Assembly: GCA_009785595.1 (NCBI GenBank)
Contig: WQVZ01000014.1
Span: 1 to 34,472, forward strand
DNA length: 34,472 nt
Direction of reading: 5' to 3'
Origin: Defluviitaleaceae bacterium
GTDB lineage: Bacteria > Bacillota > Clostridia > Lachnospirales > WRAX01
Under the pieces are notes generated by a model. That model was not told the origin of the DNA. It worked only from the letters and a program-made list of their open reading frames with translations, and did no database searches. Made by a program: the position numbers and the translations under genes. Shown one piece after another: positions 3,614 through 33,524 of this stretch (within the stretch, counting starts at the first letter, position 1; each line of letters starts with the position of its first letter).

Positions 3614-3647
3614 TATCAAATCCTCCTCGCTTCGCCCATCAGCTATT

Positions 3648-3674
3648 GTCATCCCGAACTTGATCCGGGATCCC
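3648..3674. repeat. GTCATCCCG-type palindromic repeat, copy 1
   Basis: GTCATCCCGAACTTGATCC followed by GGGATCCC, with a self-complementary GGGATC core. It is placed upstream of the six-helix protein gene and next to a family 1 copy. The second copy is at 4276. Confidence 0.7.
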
Positions 3675-3692
3675 TCGCAGCATTGCAATGCG

Positions 3693-4190
3693 TCATCGTA
3701 GGGGCGACCTGTGGTCGCCCGGTATATCCCGCCGCCCAGCTTTGGCAATAACCATGCAAAACAAAGATGCTACGCCGAATGTCGTGCCTATGACAAACAC
3801 CATACCCGATTCTATTGGCATAATAGTTTTAGTCATAGTGTTTTGTGGATTATTAACATCAACCAACATCACGCTTGAAGAAGTTGGCCAGACGCGTCCG
3901 CATCTCATAATATCTGTAAAACGAGGTCTGTGACAACTCTCATAAGGCACTACGTAAAGTTGACCACTAACTTCAATTTCGATCATAGGGAACATTGAGC
4001 GAATATGGTCACCGTAGCCCTGCACCTCAACAAAATTACGCCTTATGTAGGCATCTCTTGCCATAAGAGGTGCAGCAAATACTATGATGATCACCGCCAA
4101 AACCCCAAATATAATAGCCCGCCCCTTAGCCGCTGCAAAATCCGCCGTCCAAGGTGTGCGTGATAATGGTTCAACAGGTTGCCATGTCAT
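3693..4190 (-). CDS. DUF3592-like small membrane protein A
   Basis: The product has 165 residues: a cytoplasmic head, a membrane segment at about 25-42, an external region of about 85 residues ending in LVDVNNPQN, and a second membrane segment at about 127-148. This topology and the DVN.PQ motif resemble DUF3592 proteins; that family call is my inference. It is a clear paralogue of the protein at 6313-6777 (both share EPLSRTPWTADFAAAKGRA) and more distantly of that at 4354-4704. GGAGG lies 11 bases before ATG 4190; GTG at 4202 is too close to it. The last residues (GDHRSPLR) and the TGA stop are encoded by a family 1 repeat. Inverted ATCGTAGGGG ends bracket the gene (3695 and 4245). Confidence 0.72.
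   Translation of the reverse strand: MTWQPVEPLSRTPWTADFAAAKGRAIIFGVLAVIIIVFAAPLMARDAYIRRNFVEVQGYGDHIRSMFPMIEIEVSGQLYVVPYESCHRPRFTDIMRCGRVWPTSSSVMLVDVNNPQNTMTKTIMPIESGMVFVIGTTFGVASLFCMVIAKAGRRDIPGDHRSPLR
3695..3720 (+). repeat. Family 1 repeat, ACC variant, inside the 3' end of gene A
   Basis: ATCGTAGGGG end plus hairpin GGGCG-ACC-TGT-GGT-CGCCC. On the minus strand it codes GDHRSPLR and the TGA stop of the DUF3592-like gene A. An inverted end is at 4236-4245. Confidence 0.85.
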
Positions 4191-4275
4191 ATTAATATAC
4201 ACCTCCGTGACCTTGTGGATGGCGATGGAACACCACCCCTACGATATTTCGTTCCGATGACCAGGCCAATATATT

Positions 4276-4334
4276 GTCATCCCGGACTTGATCCGGGATC
4301 CCCCGTAAAATTGCGGGGCGGGGCCCGTAATGAC
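4276..4334. repeat. GTCATCCCG-type repeat, copy 2, with ATGAC end
   Basis: Starts GTCATCCCGGACTTGATCC and ends CCCGTAATGAC, so GTCAT and ATGAC form inverted ends around 59 bases. It separates the DUF3592-like genes A and B. A similar right end (GGGGCCAGCAATGACG) occurs at about 6851-6866. Confidence 0.65.
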
Positions 4335-4353
4335 GTACTTTGTGCTGGCGTTA

Positions 4354-4704
4354 CTACTTTGTGCGATGAAGCCAAAAGAGGACGAGGTTATATAAAGAAA
4401 TTATGCCGAATACCGCTGCTATGACAAATACTATGTGTGTAGTCATTGTCAATGCCGCCCTGGCATCTATAGCTGCAAAAATGTAATAGGGGTAGGTGCA
4501 ACAACACCATATTTGCAGTAATGGAAAAGCATTGGCATCCCACGGTAGCCATACTGGATAATATGCATCCCAGGCCAGCCAAAGCACAAGGGTGGCCAGT
4601 AGTAGGACGAGCCCAAAAACTGCAAAGCAGACTGCCCGCTTCCCCGCCGTACCGGGATTGGCCGACCAGGGTTCATGTCTGAGAACTTCTATGGCACCAT
4701 ACAT
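4354..4704 (-). CDS. DUF3592-like small membrane protein B (short)
   Basis: The product has 116 residues. Its head (IEVLRHEPWSANPGTAGKRA) aligns with that of proteins A and C (VEPLSRTPWTADFAAAKGRA), and a membrane segment follows. The external part is much shorter and the second membrane segment (TTHIVFVIAAVFGIISLY) aligns with theirs. The leader is also shared: all three genes have ACGGAGGTGT just before the start. ATG at 4704 has GGAGG eight bases upstream and fits the paralogues; a longer frame to 4755 does not. Unlike A and C it has no GTAGGGG ends; its downstream side is a different repeat (4276-4334). Function is unknown. Confidence 0.65.
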   Translation of the reverse strand: MYGAIEVLRHEPWSANPGTAGKRAVCFAVFGLVLLLATLVLWLAWDAYYPVWLPWDANAFPLLQIWCCCTYPYYIFAAIDARAALTMTTHIVFVIAAVFGIISLYNLVLFWLHRTK

Positions 4705-4789
4705 ATCCCACACCTCCGTAATATGCTCTTGTTTTGTAGACGGACTGCCGTCCACTCCTCATGGTATTCGCCACGTAATGATGTGCTTC

Positions 4790-4811
4790 GTAGGGGCGAC
4801 CTGTAGTCGCC
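4790..4811 (+). repeat. Family 1 repeat, ACC variant, 3' of gltX
   Basis: GTAGGGG end with a hairpin carrying one mismatch (ACC-TGT-AGT). It lies 12 bases past the gltX stop and is inverted relative to the copy at 6265. Confidence 0.8.
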
Positions 4812-4822
4812 TGGCTAAATGC

Positions 4823-6238
4823 CTACATCCCCAACTTCTCAAGGGCATATTCCGCACGCCTCACGCTCTCCTTTTTACCCAACACAACCAGCAAATCACT
4901 GGCCCCGCCGGGGGTGGCGGGCTTGCCGGATAGGGCACAGCGCATGGGCCACAGCACTTGGCTGCTCTTTAAACCCGCTTCTGCCGCAAATTCCGTCATC
5001 AGTTTATATAAATTTTCGCCTGTCCACAAGTCTTCCGGGTGAGCCGCCAGCACCGGTGCTATCTTAGCCAAAACATCCGCGGCCACATCGGCATCGCTTT
5101 TGGATTTTTTGTGCACAAACAGCTCTGTGTCATATTCCGGCAGGGTGTCGATAAAATCCAGGGCCTCCGATATTTCATCCAGGGCCGATATGCGGCTTTG
5201 CACCAGTTTTGCCAAAGTCATCGGGTCACAGCCGGGCCTTTTTACGGCTTTGGTCACATGGTCTGCCGCCAGGGCATAAAATCTATCAAAATCCATGGCT
5301 TTAAGATACTCTCCGTTAACCCACCGCAATTTATTAATATCAAAAGCCGATGGGGACTTGCTTATGCCTTCTATGCTAAAAATTTCGCAAAGCTCCGCCA
5401 GGGTGTAAATCTCCCGGTTGTCCGGCGGGCTCCAGCCCAACAGAGCAATATAATTTACAATGGCCTCGGGCAAAAACCCCTGGGCCAGCAAATCTTCAAA
5501 AGACGCATCGCCTCGGCGTTTTGACAGCTTGCCGCCGGTTTGGTTAAGTATCAGCGGCAGATGCACATATGTGGGTATATCCCAACCCAACGCCTGATAC
5601 AGCAGGTTGTATTTTGGCGTGCTGCTTAAATATTCACTGCCCCGCATAACATGGCTGATGGCCATAAGATGGTCGTCAATGACATTAGCAAAATTATATG
5701 TGGGCATCCCATCGGATTTTATTAGCACTTGATCTTCAAGCTCGGCATTGTCTACGGTAATTTCGCCGTAAACCTCGTCCCTAAAGGTGGTTGTGCCGGG
5801 GGGTATAAGCTGGCGCACAACATAAGGCACGCCTGCCGTCAGGTTTTTTTCGACTATATCATGAGCCAAGTCAGCACAACGGCGGTCATAACCATCCAAA
5901 CCCTCCAGCCGCTCTTTATCGCAAAAACAATAATACGCGCTGCCCCGGCGGATAAGCTCTTTTGCATGGTCCATATATCCGCTTTTACGCTGGCTTTGCA
6001 CATATGGACCATAATCGCCGCCCATATGGGGGCCTTCGTCAAAGGTAATGCCCGCAATATCCAACGTCTCGTAAATTTTGTCCAATGCATCATCCACAAG
6101 ACGTCCCTGGTCGGTGTCTTCTATGCGCAACACAAGGGTGCCGCCCATTTTGCGGGCCAGCAGGTATTTAAACAAGGCCGTGCGCAGGTTGCCCAAATGC
6201 ATATATCCTGTGGGTGATGGTGCAAAGCGTGTTCTCAT
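4823..6238 (-). CDS. gltX: Glutamate--tRNA ligase
   Basis: A class I aminoacyl-tRNA synthetase that charges tRNA-Glu with glutamate in the cytoplasm. The ATP-binding HIGH-type motif is HLGN at residues 14-17 (after FAPSPTGYM) and the KMSKS-type loop is KLSKR at 237-241. Length is 471 residues, normal for bacterial GluRS. ATG at 6238 is chosen because it starts the conserved MRTRFAPSPTG and has GAGAGG about nine bases upstream; the frame stays open to 6274. The gene is bracketed by inverted family 1 repeats: one 12 bases past the stop (4790-4811) and one 27 bases before the start (6265-6288). It is flanked by DUF3592-like genes on both sides. Confidence 0.96.
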   Translation of the reverse strand: MRTRFAPSPTGYMHLGNLRTALFKYLLARKMGGTLVLRIEDTDQGRLVDDALDKIYETLDIAGITFDEGPHMGGDYGPYVQSQRKSGYMDHAKELIRRGSAYYCFCDKERLEGLDGYDRRCADLAHDIVEKNLTAGVPYVVRQLIPPGTTTFRDEVYGEITVDNAELEDQVLIKSDGMPTYNFANVIDDHLMAISHVMRGSEYLSSTPKYNLLYQALGWDIPTYVHLPLILNQTGGKLSKRRGDASFEDLLAQGFLPEAIVNYIALLGWSPPDNREIYTLAELCEIFSIEGISKSPSAFDINKLRWVNGEYLKAMDFDRFYALAADHVTKAVKRPGCDPMTLAKLVQSRISALDEISEALDFIDTLPEYDTELFVHKKSKSDADVAADVLAKIAPVLAAHPEDLWTGENLYKLMTEFAAEAGLKSSQVLWPMRCALSGKPATPGGASDLLVVLGKKESVRRAEYALEKLGM

Positions 6239-6264
6239 AAAATCATTCCTCTCTTGCGTTATTT

Positions 6265-6288
6265 GGGCGACCACAGGTCGCCCCTACG
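6265..6288 (-). repeat. Family 1 repeat, ACC variant, 5' of gltX
   Basis: A perfect hairpin copy in inverted orientation, ending CGCCCCTACG, 27 bases upstream of the gltX start codon. Confidence 0.85.
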
Positions 6289-6312
6289 CTATCGTGAAGG
6301 CCGTATCATGCG

Positions 6313-6777
6313 TCATCGTAGGGGCGGCATTTTGCCGCCCGGCATATCCCACCGCCACCCGGCTTTGGCGACAACCCCGCAATACAACGATGCCGCGGCA
6401 AATAACCCGGCTATGATAAATATCATGCCGCTGGTCGGAAAAAAGCGTGGCAAGATGATGACATTTTGTGGGTCATTGACATCGACCAACATTCCCACAA
6501 AGAGATAAGCCGAACCGCCGGGAAATGCAGCATGAGCACCACGAAAAATTTGATCGGAAAGACGGAATGTGTAGGTCTGGCCGTCTACCCAGTAATTAAC
6601 ATGATTTCTAGAAGACCACACTAAGCCATAGGTGTGCTCAAAGCGGGTGTTGCCTATCACGACTAATGACAGCAAAACCACTGCCAAAACCCCAAATATA
6701 ATAGCCCTGCCCTTAGCCGCCGCAAAATCAGCAGTCCAAGGCGTGCGCGATAATGGTTCAACAGGTCGCCACGTCAT
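6313..6777 (-). CDS. DUF3592-like small membrane protein C
   Basis: The product has 154 residues and is a paralogue of protein A: the first 33 residues are nearly identical. It has membrane segments at about 25-42 and 117-137. The external region between them contains VDGQTYTF and LVDVNDPQN, which resembles DUF3592 (inference). GGAGG lies nine bases upstream of ATG 6777. The C-terminal residues GGKMPPLR and the TGA stop are encoded by the family 1 repeat at 6318-6340, exactly as in protein A, but with the other hairpin variant. Perfect 12-base inverted ends (6315-6326 and 6818-6829) bracket the gene. The role is unknown. Confidence 0.72.
   Translation of the reverse strand: MTWRPVEPLSRTPWTADFAAAKGRAIIFGVLAVVLLSLVVIGNTRFEHTYGLVWSSRNHVNYWVDGQTYTFRLSDQIFRGAHAAFPGGSAYLFVGMLVDVNDPQNVIILPRFFPTSGMIFIIAGLFAAASLYCGVVAKAGWRWDMPGGKMPPLR
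6315..6340 (+). repeat. Family 1 repeat, GCA variant, inside the 3' end of gene C
   Basis: ATCGTAGGGGCG end plus hairpin GGGCG-GCA-TTT-TGC-CGCCC. On the minus strand it codes GKMPPLR and the TGA stop of gene C. A perfect 12-base inverted end lies at 6818-6829. Confidence 0.85.
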
Positions 6778-6904
6778 AAATATACACCTCCGTGGTTTTG
6801 CGGGCGGATATGGAATACGCCCCTACGATACTTACTGCGGAATCGCGGGTCGGGGCCAGCAATGACGTAATTCTCTGTTTGGGCGGGCGAATTGCCATCT
6901 GCCA

Positions 6905-7955: not shown

Positions 7956-10331
7956 TTATTGTCCCGCCATGGTACGAATTTCCATGCTTTGGCCGCTGGT
8001 GCGCACCAATATTGCACCTCTTTCGGCGGTGACGTGATATGTTACGCCGTGGTCGTAAAGTCGGCGGGTGACAGAGGGATGCGGATGGTGAAACATATTG
8101 TTGCGCCCGGCAGAAATTATGGCTTTTTGGGGATTAACCGCCTCTAAAAAAGCCTGGGTTGTGGATGTGCGCGAGCCATGGTGGGCCACCTGGAGAATAT
8201 CTGCCGATAAATTGCCCCTGGTTGCTAAATAACTTTCCGCGGCGGCCTCAATATCTCCGGTAAATAATATGGAATGGCCGCCGTGTACCATGCGCAACAC
8301 CATGGAAGAGTCATTTTCGCCTGACGCAAGCCGGGCGCCATAAGGAAACAGCACATACAGCCGGGCATCGTAAAATTCTATTACATCCCCGGCGGTGACA
8401 TAGGTGACAGTCGCGCCGGATAATTCTGCCGCGTAAAGTAGCATGTCATACATATAATAATCCGGCTGGCTGTTGGCCCTGGCTAATATCAAATGGTCTA
8501 TGCGTCCGGCAAACAGGGCTTCGGCTATGCCAAGGGAGTGGTCGCGGTGGTTGTGGGTGACAATGGCCGTAGCTTGGCCTATGCCGCGATAATTCAAATA
8601 AGGCATCACCACAAAACTACCCATATTTTCGCCAACATCGCGGCCAAAAACACCGCCGCCGTCAATAATAAGCCCGCTGCGGCCGCGGGAAATTACGGCG
8701 GATTCGCCTTGACCAACGTATAGGAAAGTAGTGTTGATGTAAGGGCTTGCGGCGCCGATAATAAACGAAGTGACAAAAGCCAAGACAAATCCCGCAAAAA
8801 TGTAGGGGCGGCATTTTGACGCCCAAGTATGGCCTGTGTTAAAAGTGTGTATGAAAAATACAATGGCGGCGGTCATCATAACCATAGCAAATAAGCCCGG
8901 CCGCCCAGTGAGGATTGTTGAGAAAGGCAGACGCAGGGAGGTGTTTATCACAAAGTTATAAACAGTCAGCAAAATCCATATGGGAAAACCCAGGATGGTA
9001 GCCGCAAACATGCCAATGCCGCCGAAAATGCCCACGATAGCCATAAGAAAACCCAGAACAATAACAAAAAACACACTGGGCATAAGCAGAAAGTTAACCG
9101 GGGGCGACAGGGGCGAAAATTCAAAGAAGATATAGCTGTTGACGGGTATGTATGCCATATTGGCGGCTATGGTGCCTGCCAGATATTTTTTTACATACCA
9201 GTTTTCTAAAAACGGCCGCGAACGTGGCCAGCGGGCCGCCAGCATGTCCAATGCCTTTTGGGTGGGCGTTGTGGCAAAAACAAGGGCGGCCACCACGGAG
9301 AACGAATAGATAAAACCGGGGTCGAAAAGAAACAGAGGCTGATATAGCAGCAGAATTATGGCCGCAATGGACATGGATGTAGGGGTGTCGTTTTCGTAGC
9401 CCAACAGGCCGGAGGCTATAAGAGCAATGCCCATGATAGATGCCCGTACCGTAGCCACGCCGGCACCGGTAAGTATGGCAAAAGCAATGATAAAAAGTAT
9501 GGTGATGAGGGAGCGTTTTTTAAGACCCATGCCGAAAAATTTTAGGCTGCGCTCCACAAAAGCCACCAGCACCGCCACATGCAGGCCGGATACCACCAAA
9601 ATATGGAACATACCAACGGCACGATAGGCATCTCGCACATCACTGTCCAAACCGCTTCTATCGCCGACAATCATGGCTTTCATTATGCCGGCCATTTCCG
9701 GTGGCAGCACCTGGTCAAAAACATCTGCCAGATGCATACCAAAATTGCGTATATGTAGGGATAATGTAAGATTTACCTCATAAGCACGCACGCTTTCGGC
9801 AAAAATTTTATAATCTATGCCCCGGCTGCGCAAAAACTGAAATTCGTTAAAACCACCGGGGTTGCGCACACCATCCAAGGGCAGCAAGTATCCCGACACT
9901 ACAACACGCTGGCCCAGTGCGGCTTCTTCACCTTCGGGCAAAAAGGCCATAACACCCACCGCAGCATAATGCACATCAGCCGCTGGGCCTATGCGGAAAG
10001 TGGAGGTATGCAGGGCCACCCGCTGGCGGCCTGTGCGGGTTAGGGATATATCCTGCACAACACCCTCTATGCGGACAAAACCATGGCGTTCGGCTACTTC
10101 TTCCAATGTCGCATCACGTGGTGCCAGAGCGGACACAACAAAAAACGCCCCCAATAGTGCAAAGGCAGGAAAAATAAGGGCGATTTTGCGTTTATATGCG
10201 AAAAAATAGGTAATTGCCAAGGCGCAGACAAGCAGGGCGAAAATTAGCAAATGCTCATACAAGCTAAAATACCGCCCAAAGACGATGCCGCCCACAAGAA
10301 AAACGACAGCCCCAACCATTGGTCTTGCCAT
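7956..10331 (-). CDS. comEC: ComEC/Rec2 DNA-uptake channel
   Basis: ComEC forms the inner-membrane channel for single-stranded DNA during natural transformation. The protein has 791 residues. It has N-terminal membrane segments and a DUF4131-like soluble domain. The competence domain contains the hallmark FHILVVSGLHV at about residues 242-252. A C-terminal metallo-beta-lactamase-like domain has THNHRDH at about 592-598 and VGQGES before it. ATG at 10331 has GGAGG five bases upstream; GTG at 10337 is too close. A family 1 repeat is read in frame at residues of about 504-511 (ASKCRPYI), in the linker between the two domains, and keeps the frame open. No other competence genes are visible here. 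Confidence 0.94.
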   Translation of the reverse strand: MARPMVGAVVFLVGGIVFGRYFSLYEHLLIFALLVCALAITYFFAYKRKIALIFPAFALLGAFFVVSALAPRDATLEEVAERHGFVRIEGVVQDISLTRTGRQRVALHTSTFRIGPAADVHYAAVGVMAFLPEGEEAALGQRVVVSGYLLPLDGVRNPGGFNEFQFLRSRGIDYKIFAESVRAYEVNLTLSLHIRNFGMHLADVFDQVLPPEMAGIMKAMIVGDRSGLDSDVRDAYRAVGMFHILVVSGLHVAVLVAFVERSLKFFGMGLKKRSLITILFIIAFAILTGAGVATVRASIMGIALIASGLLGYENDTPTSMSIAAIILLLYQPLFLFDPGFIYSFSVVAALVFATTPTQKALDMLAARWPRSRPFLENWYVKKYLAGTIAANMAYIPVNSYIFFEFSPLSPPVNFLLMPSVFFVIVLGFLMAIVGIFGGIGMFAATILGFPIWILLTVYNFVINTSLRLPFSTILTGRPGLFAMVMMTAAIVFFIHTFNTGHTWASKCRPYIFAGFVLAFVTSFIIGAASPYINTTFLYVGQGESAVISRGRSGLIIDGGGVFGRDVGENMGSFVVMPYLNYRGIGQATAIVTHNHRDHSLGIAEALFAGRIDHLILARANSQPDYYMYDMLLYAAELSGATVTYVTAGDVIEFYDARLYVLFPYGARLASGENDSSMVLRMVHGGHSILFTGDIEAAAESYLATRGNLSADILQVAHHGSRTSTTQAFLEAVNPQKAIISAGRNNMFHHPHPSVTRRLYDHGVTYHVTAERGAILVRTSGQSMEIRTMAGQ
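8802..8824 (+). repeat. Family 1 repeat, GCA variant, in frame within comEC
   Basis: GTAGGGG end and hairpin with one mismatch (GACGCCC). On the minus strand it is translated as part of ASKCRPYI, between the competence and lactamase-like domains of ComEC. Confidence 0.85.
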
Positions 10332-10780: not shown

Positions 10781-10841
10781 TGCAGTTCCTCCGCAAACTT
10801 TTAAACACTGGCAGCAGGTGCGCGCCATAAAGGACACAGCC

Positions 10842-10870
10842 AGTATACCACCAAAATATGAACAATACAA
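10842..10870 (-). promoter_or_regulatory. Promoter of the VOC gene
   Basis: On the minus strand TTGTAT (10870-10865), 17 bases and TATACT (10847-10842), about 62 bases before the start codon and just past the stop of the transferase gene. Confidence 0.5.
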
Positions 10871-10873
10871 TAA

Positions 10874-12481
10874 CTACCAACTGGCTATGCTGCCATCACA
10901 CCTGGATTCCGTACCGCCGCACAGCACGCCGGTTTTTGGGTCGCGCCATATAATTTGTCCGCGGCCAAAGCTGCCGGATTCCGGGGGGATTTGGATGCGG
11001 TGACCAAGGTCTATAAGTTCTTGGGCGACATGTATCGGGAAAGAATGTTCCACGTGGAACATTTTGTCGGATATCCACTGCCAGCGCGGTGCATCCAGGG
11101 CGGCCTGGGGGTTGTGGCCAAAGTCCAATGTGTTCATGATAACTTGCAGATGACCCTGGGGCTGCATATAACCGCCCATTACACCAAAGGGGCCGATGGC
11201 GGTGCTGTTTTTGGTGAGAAAACCCGGGATGATGGTGTGATAGCTGCGTTTGCCGCCGGCCAGCGCGTTGGCATGGGCAGGGTTAAGGCTAAAGTCCGCG
11301 CCGCGGTTTTGCAGGGCAATGCCTGTTCCGGGGACAACAATGCCGGAGCCAAAGCCCATGTAATTGCTTTGGATAAAGGACACCATATTGCCGTGGCCGT
11401 CAGCGGTGGCTAGGTATACCGTGCCGCCGGTGCTTGGGCTTATAGGGGTGGGCTCCAAGGCGGTTGCGCCTATCCTACCGCGCAACATAGCGGCGTATTC
11501 TTCACTTAAAAACTTTTTGGTGGGAATTTTCATATGGTCTGGATCGGTGATAAATTCTTTGCCGGCGGTAAAGGCCAGTTTCATGGCCTCGAAAGCCTTG
11601 TGATATGTAGCGGGGCTGTCCTTTTCGGTGAAATTATAGTCTTTTAGGATGTTTAGCGCGATAAGCGCAACCAAGCCCTGGCCGTTGGGGGGCAGCTCCC
11701 ACACATCGTATCCGCGGTAATTGACGGATATGGGGCTGACCCATTGGGGCTGGAAACTTTCCAGGTCTGATTTGGTCAAAAATCCACCTGTTTTGGCAGA
11801 ATACGAGGCAATTTCATCAGCCAAGCGGCCGCGGTAAAAACTTTCCGCGCCGGTTTCGCCTATTTCTGACAAGGTGTTTGCGTGGTGGGAAGATGACCAT
11901 ATTTCGCCAGCCTGTGGCGTGCGGTCGTCTGGGGCAAACACATCAAACCACGGGGCAAATTCCGGCCCGTTAAGGCGTTTGTATGCGGCATATGCCCGTT
12001 GCCAGCCCTTGGCCACTGTTGGTGCAATGGGATGGCCGTTTTTTGCGTAATTTATGGCGGGGGCCAGGCATTGGGCCAGTGTCAGCGCACCAAAGCGGGC
12101 GGAAAGGGCCGCCCAGGCCGCAGGGGCACCGGGGACAGTTACGGGTGTCCAGCCCATTTTTGGCATATCACCATGACCCAGGGCGCGTACCGCATCTATA
12201 TTGATGCTTTGGGGCGCCGGGCCGGAGCTGTTAAGACCAAACATTTCGTTTTTCATCCACACAATGGCAAAGGCGTCGCCGCCAATGCCGTTGGATGTGG
12301 GTTCTACCACCGTAAGACAGGCCGCGGTGGCAATGGCAGCATCTACAGCGTTGCCGCCTGCCTGCAACATGGCCAGTCCGGCTTGGGCTGCCAGGGGGTG
12401 GGATGTAGCCACCATGCCATTTTGGGCATAGTGTGGCACGCGGGTTGTGGGATAAGGGTTGTGGGTCGGGTTGAAATTCAT
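10874..12481 (-). CDS. Gamma-glutamyltransferase-family Ntn hydrolase (YwrD-like)
   Basis: The family cleaves gamma-glutamyl or related amide bonds after self-cleavage that exposes a catalytic threonine. The protein has 535 residues. AGGNAVDAA lies near residue 41. The predicted processing site is before Thr354 (TGGT/VYLATADGHGN), followed by FGSGIVVPGTGI. The motif GGKRSYHTIIP replaces the usual serine-rich oxyanion segment of classical Ggt, as in YwrD-like members. No signal peptide is visible, so it is probably cytoplasmic, unlike secreted Ggt. AGGAG lies seven bases before the ATG. The true substrate is uncertain. Confidence 0.88.
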   Translation of the reverse strand: MNFNPTHNPYPTTRVPHYAQNGMVATSHPLAAQAGLAMLQAGGNAVDAAIATAACLTVVEPTSNGIGGDAFAIVWMKNEMFGLNSSGPAPQSINIDAVRALGHGDMPKMGWTPVTVPGAPAAWAALSARFGALTLAQCLAPAINYAKNGHPIAPTVAKGWQRAYAAYKRLNGPEFAPWFDVFAPDDRTPQAGEIWSSSHHANTLSEIGETGAESFYRGRLADEIASYSAKTGGFLTKSDLESFQPQWVSPISVNYRGYDVWELPPNGQGLVALIALNILKDYNFTEKDSPATYHKAFEAMKLAFTAGKEFITDPDHMKIPTKKFLSEEYAAMLRGRIGATALEPTPISPSTGGTVYLATADGHGNMVSFIQSNYMGFGSGIVVPGTGIALQNRGADFSLNPAHANALAGGKRSYHTIIPGFLTKNSTAIGPFGVMGGYMQPQGHLQVIMNTLDFGHNPQAALDAPRWQWISDKMFHVEHSFPIHVAQELIDLGHRIQIPPESGSFGRGQIIWRDPKTGVLCGGTESRCDGSIASW

Positions 12482-12518
12482 AGGGGTTCTCCTTTCGCGC
12501 GTGTAGTAAATGCCGCCG

Positions 12519-17302: not shown

Positions 17303-18517
17303 GTGGAAAGACGAAAATTTTTGATGGATGTGCTGGCCAATGGGACAATTTTTATTGTGCTTTTCAATATTTTGGCCCTGACATATATTATGGGCTATAC
17401 AAGCGATTATGTGCCCTGGTGGTTTTTGCTGCTGGCCGTCCCTTTTGCTTTCCTTATGTTTTTGCGCAGGCATGTGCGCATTATGCCGCTCTTTCTTAGC
17501 ATACATGTCATATTTCTTGTCCTGCCTGTTATCATCTTTAGCACCCTCTACGCCATTGTTGCCGTCACGGCCTTTGCCGCAATAAGTGTGGGCTATTCCA
17601 TACATGCGCGGCTAAAAGAAGAGCTAAAACTGCGCGGCGTATGGATTGTATTGTTTATGGCGGCTTTGGCCACTGTGTTTTTTATTGTGGATGGCTTAAT
17701 TAGGCATGTTGCGGGCATGAACGTCCTCGTCATCATATCCTCCATCGTTGTCCTTTGCGCCGCGGTTTTGTATATACATCTAGAAAATGTGGATTTTAGT
17801 ATGCGCATATTAAGTGACCGTTACAAAAAGCCCGTTGGCAATGTTTTGTCCTCAAACAACAGGATAATTACCGGTTTTTTGATAATACTTTCCGCCTTTG
17901 GCATATTATCCGTCGTTTTCCCTGCCCAGACCGTTTTTACAGCCCTTACCAGGGCCGCGGTTTTTATAATAACCCTGCCCATAGCTTTGCTGGTAGCCCT
18001 AACAGATTTTTTGGGATCGAACCCAGACCCAATTCATGAAGGCACACCATTACTTATGCCCGAAGACGGTTATGGCTATGGAGGGTATATGGAAGAAGCA
18101 GAGCCGGATAACTTCCTTGAAATAATGAACGCCGTATACGATGCTCTGGTTTGGGTTGTGTTGGTTGCTGTGGTAATAGGTGCCATCGCAGGTGTCATCT
18201 ATATTGTAATAAAGCTGCACAAAGTTTTTGGCAAAAAGCATGACGACGAAAACAAGGAATCCCTTATGCCCGACGACACCATAGGCAAGCTTAAATTTGC
18301 TTTGGGAGACCTGGCGGCCTTTTTGCCCCGGCGCAAACCAAAGGTAAAGCATCCCGTGCGCAGGGCATATATCAAGAAAGTAAACAGACACATAAAACAA
18401 GGCACGGTTGTTTTGTCCAGCCACACCACAGAAGTAATAGCGGACAACATACGCCCCAACGAAGACATTGACCAACTGACAGAAACATATGAAGAGGCGC
18501 GGTACGGCAAAATGTAG
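17303..18517 (+). CDS. Multi-pass membrane protein with DUF4129-like tail
   Basis: A 404-residue protein with about eight N-terminal membrane segments (near 15-31, 38-54, 60-80, 82-99, 113-130, 140-158, 188-206, 212-234) and one more at 279-303, then a basic cytoplasmic tail. The tail (VRRAYIKKVNRHIK, HTTEVIADNI, LTETYEEARYGKM) resembles the DUF4129 domain found at the end of TgpA-type transglutaminase proteins. No transglutaminase Cys-His-Asp set is visible, so this looks like the membrane and tail parts without the enzyme. GTG start with AGGAGG six bases upstream. The TAG stop codon is part of a family 1 repeat. Confidence 0.78.
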   Translation: MERRKFLMDVLANGTIFIVLFNILALTYIMGYTSDYVPWWFLLLAVPFAFLMFLRRHVRIMPLFLSIHVIFLVLPVIIFSTLYAIVAVTAFAAISVGYSIHARLKEELKLRGVWIVLFMAALATVFFIVDGLIRHVAGMNVLVIISSIVVLCAAVLYIHLENVDFSMRILSDRYKKPVGNVLSSNNRIITGFLIILSAFGILSVVFPAQTVFTALTRAAVFIITLPIALLVALTDFLGSNPDPIHEGTPLLMPEDGYGYGGYMEEAEPDNFLEIMNAVYDALVWVVLVAVVIGAIAGVIYIVIKLHKVFGKKHDDENKESLMPDDTIGKLKFALGDLAAFLPRRKPKVKHPVRRAYIKKVNRHIKQGTVVLSSHTTEVIADNIRPNEDIDQLTETYEEARYGKM

Positions 18518-18536
18518 GGGCGACCTGTGGTCGTCC
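18514..18536 (+). repeat. Family 1 repeat, ACC variant, supplying a stop codon
   Basis: GTAGGGG end with hairpin ACC-TGT-GGT. Its TAG (18515-18517) is the stop codon of the DUF4129-like gene, and its end lies 27 bases before the sortase start. Confidence 0.85.
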
Positions 18537-19771: not shown

Positions 19772-19794
19772 GTAGGGGCGGCATTTTGCCGCCT
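19772..19794 (+). repeat. Family 1 repeat, GCA variant
   Basis: GTAGGGG end with hairpin GCA-TTT-TGC, last base of the stem changed (GCCGCCT). It lies 20 bases past the stop of the leftward gene at 19814. Confidence 0.8.
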
Positions 19795-22731: not shown

Positions 22732-22833
22732 CACGGAGCGTTAACGCTCCGTGGGTCTTACGCCGCGTAACGCGGCGTTTCTGCACGCGGCGTTTACGAA
22801 GCGTGGGAAATGACGTTGCGTCAACGCAACGTC
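22732..22833. repeat. Modular ACG-NNN-CGT hairpin array, locus 1
   Basis: Four palindromes in a row share one frame, ACG-NNN-CGT, a 1-2 base loop, then ACG-N'N'N'-CGT. Triplet GAG is at 22732-22753, CCG at 22760-22778 and TTG at 22812-22833. A damaged CTT module lies at 22784-22805: its right arm is ACG-AAG-CGT but its left arm reads CGG. It fills the gap between the DUF445 stop and the tkt promoter. No T-run follows, so these are not ordinary terminators. Three of the four modules recur at 33452-33524. Confidence 0.85.
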
Positions 22834-30000: not shown

Positions 30001-31568
30001 TTTACAGAGTAGACGGCGAAGACCTTATCCCTGTAGGCCCCGGCGGCGATAATTGGCTGGGCTCACGCCAGGCTCCATTGATAGGCCACAGAGACGGCTC
30101 TAACATAGGCGGCCCAATGCGCGGCCAACAGCACCGCGCCATGATATTGGATATATATCCTCTTGGCCTGGCAGAAGGCGAATATACCCTTCGTCTGGAT
30201 GTTCACCGCTCAACCTGGACGGGCTACACAATTATCAACGACAACTGGATTCAAGCAGAAACCATATATCTCCCATTCTGGGTAGACAACACCCCGCCTG
30301 TTCTGCAAGACCTTGACATCCAAGGCATTAACCTTGGCAATATCAATCTGCTTGACTTTGACGGCGAAACCGTAACGGTAATGCCAACTGACAGAACAGA
30401 CAATGAAATAGTAATCACCGGTAATGTATTTGACGCATGGACAGACGAAATGATGGGCGAAGATGTCTTTGGCATCTGGCGTAATGCGGAAGCCGGCATG
30501 GACAACGTAGCTGTATTTGTCCTTTTGGGCGAAAACACACCAGCCAACCGCCCTGTACGTGCAGAACTGGATGAAGACGGCAACTTTGCTGTCACCATCG
30601 AGGTAGACGAAGAAGCGGATACCTTCGACATAACAATTTGGGCTGTTGACGGCTGGTCTGTGCTGCCTAATGTGGATGGTTTCCTCCATGCAGGCGGCCC
30701 TGGGCTTCACCCCAATTGGGCTTCCCAAGCTGGTGTTATGGCTGTGCTTAGAACCCTTAACCACAGAGACCACTTTGCTCTTCCATTCGGTCTTATTGGT
30801 GCCGATGCGGCCCTCAATACCGACTTGCATCAAGGCAGATGGTACTGGCAAAGTGCCGCAATTGGTGCCAGAATGGGCGAACATGTTTGGAGCGGTCTTA
30901 ATGTAACCGAATTTAACGTGAGCATCGTTGAAGAATTCCCAACCTTCACACTTAACATCTTTAACAACGGCCATTCCAATAACGCATCACTGGCTACTCT
31001 GGGTGTTATCCGCATGTGGACACAGCTTAACGGCCAAAACGCCCTTGTGCCTTATGCCGGATTAGAAATAACAGCAGAATTCCCCAATGGTCAATGTGCT
31101 ATGCATGTTATAAACATTAACCGCCCATGGAACAACCAAGGTTTTGTAAACTTTATTGATGCAGACAAAACCGTTAACTGGCAGCGCATATACCTTACAG
31201 CCACCCTTTTTGGCCAAACCGTAGATGCTGTCCTTATAAACGACTTGTATGTTACAAGAACCCTGGGTTTCCAAGCCTTTAACAACGGTAACGACAACCA
31301 CGCAGGTCTTGCGGGCACCATCCGTATATGGACGCAAATAAACGGCGTAAACACCCTTATCCCATATGCAGATATTACAGTAACGGCCACCCATCTTAAC
31401 GGAGAATGTGCCATGGAATTTGTGCGCATTAACCGCCCGTGGAACAACCAGGCTTATGTTAATTTGTTTGATGTAACCAAAACCGATGCCGACTGGCAAT
31501 ATATCAACTTTGCCGTGGAACTTAACGGCCAGGTTGCGGAACTTCTGCTTATTAACAACCTGTACTAG
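27087..31568 (+). CDS. Secreted subtilisin-family (S8) protease with tandem C-terminal domains
   Basis: A 1493-residue exported protease. A signal peptide ends near residue 40 (LSAVTLAEE), and an inhibitor-type propeptide of about 130-150 residues follows. The catalytic triad is Asp236 (AVIDSGID), His333 (SHGTHVSG) and Ser716 (GTSMSGPHVAG), with oxyanion Asn436 (SAGNNGP). The long gap between Asn436 and Ser716 holds a PA-type insert (about 550-625), as in lactocepin and Vpr-like enzymes. Fn3-like beta domains follow (about 800-1190). Two tandem copies of a domain of about 100 residues end the protein (1287-1388 and 1394-1493). There is no LPXTG-type signal or membrane anchor. AAAGGAG lies seven bases before the ATG. 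Confidence 0.93.
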   Translation: MKTKLLPGNNKGMFKFMRKSLVCLLAFVIAIGPLSAVTLAEEYNPAATVLSAERQEIFEEIQLEQLNHGLVGFEGANALPNDDTPVSVFVFFNHGPAAVQVVEAQVAGRRMAQSMAEQIVEYEHATFQQELAGLFAITPFGMDDRTYSVDFEYRHALNGVAMTLPANMVEAVLDISVVRAIYPVAYVEAPEPVIFPVATDAARDPQGMQQGRHRMNVPELHSRGYTGEGVLIAVIDSGIDWMHPAFRGSFPTAQYMYERGLELDQSELINFGTAADPDWRFVGRDFIRLWPGQAWRGNPTTRPAGQPGHDPMEAAPFNFPGNAQAAAAGWTSHGTHVSGTIVGRDVAAHGNTDNNYDVSILGVAPGALAIHYRALWGSTPNTVITAAFERAVLDGADVVNMSLGGGVASAVDVQGIAINNLMLADPYLVFVISAGNNGPNYRTSGNPSGATMAISVSALKEPQDFGLEMRWPSPTGVGRTSFMLPNVAWYLDQLPNGNYIFDIDSITTRADGTMTVFAMPVTPGSPVGAGQNATTAPPVGAGTANDFAELERIHGREALEGHFVLVRRGYTFSDITLHANRLGLGGVIQINTIQQPPAAGGVSGALMLSMFYTEGFELAQWLNLNQDPADRWGTIWFSDTLGELGDLHLQGFSSRGPVLGSLEITPDVGAHGVHVWSSMPRWSLDLPWQTDTVPWQEHWRNDDNWITAYWFMSGTSMSGPHVAGGVALMVQYSRENGGQWESTEIKARIVNTAIPVTYQSDIIPEHTPVRGVFNGSRQMDVWAAVQATTVVSVEYSRVTTIPGRSFGAQPLVTTTKGSFSFGGLGDGQSNSLTAIINSQEGGVYTITHEFILDGRLSQEGATLALSRNSVTVAPGASETFVATLTMPAVAVPAGHYEGYITVTKGEAVVARLPFAAVGITVSPPVFDGSVFLYSSVVSGDSLFPVGNAISPLASQLGIFFTPNDGFYFDMFLYRVDGEDLIPVGPGGDNWLGSRQAPLIGHRDGSNIGGPMRGQQHRAMILDIYPLGLAEGEYTLRLDVHRSTWTGYTIINDNWIQAETIYLPFWVDNTPPVLQDLDIQGINLGNINLLDFDGETVTVMPTDRTDNEIVITGNVFDAWTDEMMGEDVFGIWRNAEAGMDNVAVFVLLGENTPANRPVRAELDEDGNFAVTIEVDEEADTFDITIWAVDGWSVLPNVDGFLHAGGPGLHPNWASQAGVMAVLRTLNHRDHFALPFGLIGADAALNTDLHQGRWYWQSAAIGARMGEHVWSGLNVTEFNVSIVEEFPTFTLNIFNNGHSNNASLATLGVIRMWTQLNGQNALVPYAGLEITAEFPNGQCAMHVININRPWNNQGFVNFIDADKTVNWQRIYLTATLFGQTVDAVLINDLYVTRTLGFQAFNNGNDNHAGLAGTIRIWTQINGVNTLIPYADITVTATHLNGECAMEFVRINRPWNNQAYVNLFDVTKTDADWQYINFAVELNGQVAELLLINNLY
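30945..31565 (+). repeat. Tandem coding repeat at the end of the subtilase
   Basis: Two copies of a module of about 100 residues. Shared blocks are FNNG, IR.WTQ.NG.N.L.PYA, NG.CAM, INRPWNNQ, VN..D..KT, WQ.I and LIN.LY. Each has exactly one Cys. The second copy ends the protein. Identity is moderate at protein level and lower in DNA, so the duplication is not recent. Confidence 0.85.
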
Positions 31569-33451: not shown

Positions 33452-33524
33452 ACGCCGCGTTACGCGGCGTAGAACCCACGCTTCGTAAACGAAGCGTGAA
33501 AATCACGGAGCGTAAACGCTCCGT
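33452..33524. repeat. Modular ACG-NNN-CGT hairpin array, locus 2
   Basis: Three palindromes of the frame seen at 22732-22833: triplet CCG (33452-33470), CTT (33477-33498, intact) and GAG (33505-33524). The linker between CCG and CTT (AGAACCC) is nearly the complement of the linker beside CCG at locus 1, where the neighbour is GAG. The array fills the gap between the AlkD-like gene and the Cas4-like gene. Confidence 0.85.

Follow-up and report, generated by a model that had tools for sequence, protein, structure and literature searches.

REPs are small repeats, probably moved by a dedicated enzyme, the REP-associated tyrosine transposase (RAYT). GTAG-tagged REPs and BIMEs combine a GTAG tag with a short perfect hairpin, and are mostly intergenic and found at the 3′ ends of genes (Di Nocera 2013, PMC3733652). 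In other species these GTAG-REPs are sometimes translated, or supply the TAG stop codon of a neighbouring gene (PMC3733652). In REPINs, inverted REPs with outward tags form a discrete, dispersed unit, with a RAYT gene elsewhere in the genome (Bertels and Rainey 2011, PMC3116915). The authors of that paper only speculate that a REPIN incorporating DNA useful to its host would gain an advantage (PMC3116915). In-frame REPs within the transposase gene itself are described for TnpA-REP subclass 2.4, where the insertions are generally between HuH and Y (Quentin 2018, PMC6006769). The locus that we describe here touches on the question of what makes bacteria retain RAYT genes and populations of REPs.

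Another class of element, the mobile insertion cassettes (MICs), carries a passenger gene between transposon ends. MICs have no transposase of their own and are activated in trans (mentioned in PMC3129680). The units described below are like MICs in lacking their own transposase and in having a passenger gene between their ends, but these ends are REP hairpins, unlike the insertion-sequence inverted repeats that end a MIC. They share with the REPINs of PMC3116915 the inverted REPs, the outward tags, the discrete dispersed unit and the RAYT elsewhere in the genome, and differ in being 0.5 kb long, in having a protein gene inside and in often having dissimilar ends. No report of a gene-carrying, gene-spreading REPIN-like unit was found in the open-licence literature that we searched. 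If a RAYT did copy these units, a REP/RAYT system can spread host genes as well as itself.

GTAG-type REPs in the window and the genome

The window, the whole 34,472-nt stretch of DNA analysed here, is contig 14 of a 1.69-Mb draft genome in 92 contigs. It had been read before from its letters alone, and this sequence-only reading proposed that inverted GTAGGGG ends bracket single genes like small cassettes. Ends of this type are present where they were claimed to be. The motif ATCGTAGGGG occurs on the forward strand at 3695-3704 and 6315-6324 and on the reverse strand at 4236-4245 and 6820-6829, with one more copy at 2041 and one-mismatch copies at 4787 (forward) and 6281-6290 (reverse). The window contains 7 matches to ATCGTAGGGG where 1.5 are expected from shuffled sequences, and none of the shuffles reached 7. 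The ATC that had been counted as part of the repeat does not belong to it: on the side facing the gene it stems from the final codon and stop (CGA-TRA), read as the reverse complement, and genome-wide the bases preceding GTAG have only a weak bias.

The ends are almost certainly GTAG-type REP hairpins. The sequence GTAGGGGCG is the tagged foot of such a hairpin, and after it comes a short palindrome with CGCCC at its end. Exact copies of GTAGGGGCG number 157 across the genome, versus 21 for a reversed control motif. A CGCCC foot with a loop of 2-8 nt was found for 115 of the 123 exact copies examined, versus 1 of 13 for the reversed control. The inner stems vary and stay complementary (GGCA/TGCC, GACC/GGTC, GGAT/ATCC, GAAC/GTTC and others), with 321 of 345 inner-stem pairs complementary versus 179 after shuffling (maximum 218), a strong covariation with compensatory change. 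The REPs are mostly extragenic, with 19 of 123 falling within long ORFs as compared to 75% of random positions. Some are translated, as in the tails of genes A and C, and on contig 10 a neighbouring gene takes its TAG stop from a REP. We discarded a looser REP detector, as it found almost as many matches with the reversed control. An Rfam search of the window gave no match. The REPs of the window are as follows:

1983-2066, no strand assigned: REP mosaic downstream of a moxR-type gene, a degenerate double REP plus a REP at 2044-2066
3698-3720, forward: GTAG-REP with a GACC..GGTC stem, at the 3′ end of unit A; read as the reverse complement, it gives the final residues of gene A, ..GDHRSPLR
4215-4242, reverse: degenerate GTAG-REP, 5′ end of unit A, GTAGGGGTGGTGTTCCATCGCCATCC
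4790-4812, forward: GTAG-REP immediately downstream of gltX
6265-6287, reverse: GTAG-REP upstream of gltX
6318-6340, forward: GTAG-REP with a GGCA..TGCC stem, at the 3′ end of unit C, where it codes for the C-terminal GKMPPLR
6802-6826, reverse: GTAG-REP, 5′ end of unit C, GTAGGGGCGTATTCCATATCCGCCC
8802-8824, forward: GTAG-REP within a comEC-type ORF
18514-18536, forward: GTAG-REP copy
19772-19794, forward: GTAG-REP copy

In tag, hairpin, location, translation and TAG stop (the contig 10 case), these REPs are like the GTAG-REPs and BIMEs of PMC3733652. The motif GTAGGGGCG, Firmicutes and Clostridia are absent from the text of that survey, the main one of those consulted, and the phylum of the source is unnamed there; RAYT genes are present in the genome. 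Recognition and cleavage of the tag by a RAYT is a trait of the REP class and is putative here. The REPs of this genome, and its RAYTs with internal REPs, are new examples of already known kinds.

A second repeat family, made up of GTCATCCCGG..GATCCGGGATCC and CGTCATTG, is interleaved with the REPs and resembles CGTC-tagged repeats. In the sampled genome CGTCATTG has 65 copies, versus 14 of its reversed form. The copies in the window are:

3644-3686, 4272-4314, 6841-6872, 1959 and 19482: second repeat family

A small gene family between inverted REPs

The genes concerned all lie on the reverse strand:

3696-4190, reverse: gene A, for a small protein of membrane type with 165 aa, counted from the conserved ATG
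4354-4713, reverse: gene B, a more distant relative of A, without REP bracketing
4823-6274, reverse: gltX (glutamyl-tRNA synthetase), its REP bracketing judged to be chance
6316-6777, reverse: gene C, a paralogue of A between gltX and holA

Genes A and C had been called paralogues, and they are: the proteins are 44% identical, and a block of 109 bp at the 5′ end is 87% identical. The perfect 12-base complement at the two ends of unit C is also as described. The lengths given for the two units were slightly too large, as from tag to tag unit A measures 545 bp rather than 551 and unit C 509 bp rather than 515. Searches of the genome, first with C and afterwards with a profile of five proteins, gave an A family of exactly five copies: A and C themselves, a tandem pair between aroH and cmk on contig 7, and a single copy after a DapDH-like gene on contig 10. 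Pfam gave nothing above its cut-off for the A, B and C proteins, and the five-protein profile retrieved no relative from a collection of genome contigs. In an alignment of the family, residues 1-33 and the second membrane segment hardly vary, and the middle is highly variable.

All five copies are bracketed by outward-tagged inverted REPs, in three separate places in the genome. In each of them a REP, sometimes degenerate, lies just 5′ of the ribosome-binding site, and a second REP makes up the last codons. When the copies are aligned, the similarity starts at the 5′ GTAG and runs up to the inverted 3′ tag or to within about 10 bases of it. The flanks beyond the tags are unrelated, other repeats aside. 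Among these, copies C7b, A and C have a further common repeat upstream of the 5′ tag. The stretch at 1890-2084 of the window, around the REP mosaic, has 78% identity over 195 bp to the sequence that adjoins the contig 10 unit. In a self-comparison covering 63% of the genome (1.07 Mb) we obtained 115 repeated DNA segments. Ten of these have a shared edge that falls on an outward REP tag, and each of the ten links two copies of the A family; there were no other REP-edged gene repeats in the 1.07 Mb of this genome that was sampled.

It is highly improbable that all of this bracketing, that of A and C included, is a coincidence in a REP-rich region. The REP density of the region is indeed the highest of the sampled genome (5 in 3.2 kb), but the five-copy alignment contradicts such a reading: at three loci, five copies out of five have a REP at each end, and the orientation is always the same. 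For the other genes the outcome is different. The full inverted copies around gltX, at 4790 and 6265, are there as had been reported, but as a bracketed cassette gltX does not hold up: this is the only full-length gltX in the genome, and relatives have gltX without REPs at its ends, so we rejected it as cargo. Nor is there a genome-wide excess of inverted pairs. Outward REP pairs less than 700 bp apart number 13 in this genome versus 11 expected with the strands shuffled (p of about 0.27). Most REP pairs besides those of the A family, gltX included, are judged to be chance neighbours. Neither gene B nor the 55-base unit at 1983-2037 is supported as a cassette; the latter is there, but its ends are merely degenerate (GCAGGGG / CCCCCTAC) and it is a compact double REP.

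Probable origin and spread of the unit

The relatives that we compared belong to the same family and to other genera. One of them, G003, has 100% identity over 4.4 kb, at its gltX locus, with a named Defluviitaleaceae MAG (Lachnospirales, Clostridia). In at least nine of these genomes aroH and cmk are adjacent or a few bases apart. In relative G002 the gap between holA and gltX is 46 bp, with no gene C in it, and in relative G022 the interval between the DapDH and ABC genes has no A-type gene. Empty sites, which had been suggested as a check, are found in relatives for unit C and for the loci on contigs 7 and 10. No target duplications, the other trace that had been suggested, were identified; to our knowledge, REP/IS200-type elements are not expected to create them. 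As the relatives are of other genera, gene loss is possible at each single site.

Between moxR and gltX, which are adjacent in relative G003, G022 has one diverged homologue, free of REPs. This homologue has a weak Pfam match to DUF3592 (E 0.03) and groups with A in a small tree, with a support of 0.96-0.97. It is likely that gene A sits in the ancestral locus. From the grouping of the REP-free homologue with A, together with the empty sites, we infer that the gene probably began between moxR and gltX without REPs, acquired them in the source lineage, and that the bracketed unit then appeared elsewhere. The ends are thus unlikely to be an original part of the gene, since the homologue at the probable ancestral locus lacks them. 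In 0.39 Mb of G022 there were no REP-edged gene repeats; there was one repeat of 132 bp.

The best overall explanation, to which we give a probability of about 0.6, is a REP-bounded unit with a gene inside that spread as a block after acquiring its REPs. An ancestral REP-free gene between moxR and gltX would have become flanked by two REPs with their tags outward, which would give the layout of a REPIN with an interior of about 0.5 kb holding the gene. The REP-gene-REP block would then have been copied to at least three other intergenic sites, namely holA-gltX, aroH-cmk (two units) and the site after the DapDH-like gene. The copying of a block is itself likely. Points against the explanation are that the sampled 63% of the genome has no other gene spread in such a manner, that outward pairs show no excess, and that C7b, A and C have the further repeat in common beyond the 5′ tag. 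The proposal of a transposase-less family that spreads a gene is therefore partly right, in that the REP-bounded unit of A and C appears to have spread its gene; its ends, though, belong to a genome-wide family of GTAG-REPs.

A more conventional account is ordinary gene-family expansion, with REPs that favour gene ends attached before the duplications, and with sharp edges that mark the limit of selection. The REPs of this genome do lie mainly outside long ORFs, and outward pairs are without excess. Moreover, the REP at the 3′ edge of the homology is translated, and the edge itself falls at the stop codon, where selection on the gene could be enough to set it. We nevertheless consider this account unlikely. 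The non-coding 5′ sequence is kept from the ribosome-binding site to GTAG, and then ends, at unrelated loci. In addition, the aroH-cmk interval holds just REP-like repeats and gene units, and the two genes are adjacent in relatives.

Candidate agents of the proposed copying

The agent that would have copied the block is proposed to be a RAYT working in trans, with single-stranded DNA at the tags as its substrate, a tentative assignment with somewhat less than an even chance of being correct. The earlier remark that no transposase is visible is true of the window; the genome, however, encodes RAYT-type transposases at four loci. Contig 61 has an intact 184-aa ORF and contig 27 an open frame of 174 aa, and the other two loci have an in-frame stop. 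The best NCBIfam family is the REP-associated tyrosine transposase (REP_Tyr_transpos; E 3.7e-19), with a score of 69 that falls below the cut-off of 80, probably because of REP inserts in the RAYT. Within this bacterial family RAYT matches were found in all nine REP-enriched genomes versus two of seven others (p = 0.005). A second Y1 transposase gene, on contig 33, was set aside, since it is of a plain IS200 type and no REP lies less than 1 kb from it.

In 11 of the 17 RAYT genes of the family an inverted, outward-tagged REP pair lies inside the ORF, in frame, with its members 181-220 bp apart. The stems of a pair usually match within a gene and differ between genes. The genes are:

L028:4303-4857 (contig 61), L031, L032, L036, L037, L040-L043, L046 and L048: RAYT genes with an internal REP pair

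By description, these RAYTs are like subclass 2.4 of PMC6006769 in having in-frame REPs in the gene. They are unlike it in that most of the genes have REPs on either side of the HUH-coding stretch, as an inverted pair whose tags face outward and whose stems match.

In relative G021, GTAGGGGCG ends bound REPINs of about 101 bp, which begin and end at the tag and lie in unrelated surroundings. The two REPs of such a REPIN are of the same type and able to pair, and a REP of that type, GGGCATTGCCC, lies within the RAYT gene of G021. By analogy these REPINs are the best support for the outward REP pair as a transposing unit. In a few of them one end is replaced by a longer hairpin. They are:

L157, L159, L162, L167, L168, L170 and L176: G021 REPINs with GGTAGGGGCG ends

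The A-family ends differ from this pattern. They mostly pair over the outer 9-12 nt only, and in at least four of the five units the two REPs are unlike in stem type, so a single cognate RAYT for both ends is not obvious; heterodimers do occur among known REPs. The five copies are also old (about 44-62% amino acid identity), and fine junctions are therefore lost. As a whole, the scheme in which a REPIN captured a protein gene, and a RAYT in trans places copies of the REP-gene-REP unit, about 0.5 kb long, at new sites, is one that we would put forward only as a possibility, with odds of around one in three. It would make the A family a concrete candidate for a REPIN with useful DNA, in view of the five copies, the empty sites and the REP-free homologue at the probable parent locus.

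The block may also have been copied without a RAYT, by REP-to-REP recombination or replication template switching that carried the segment between REPs into resident REPs elsewhere. This shares the copying of a block with our preferred explanation and differs from it in the agent. Equivalent unit ends have unlike REP types, with the 5′ end of C10 and the 3′ end of C of the GGCA type, as though resident REPs had been retained. Four-fold sites differ by about 31% in the ends of the genes versus 65% in the middle, and this greater likeness of the ends suggests recombination between copies. That said, the homology available is very short, at about 25 bp, and the clean, transposition-like REPINs with the same ends in G021 argue against this route, which we regard as somewhat unlikely. 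We lean towards some recombination on the strength of the unlike end REPs and the gene ends that are closer than the middle, and towards a RAYT on that of the clean G021 REPINs.

Some other repeats were encountered in the window and the genome. Palindrome-rich repeats, CACGGAGCGTTAACGCTCCGTG and ACGCCGCGTTACGCGGCGT, are present as inverted copies about 10.7 kb apart (22732-22807 and 33452-33524 of the window). The stretch at 31008-31485 of the window contains repeated coding segments that are 75% identical and 312 bp apart; segments like them occur on contig 1 and at the ends of contigs 29 and 37. Finally, contig 38 has a tandem duplication of about 0.6 kb with 84% identity (10832-12518, L093), and a REP in the same orientation lies near the start of each copy.
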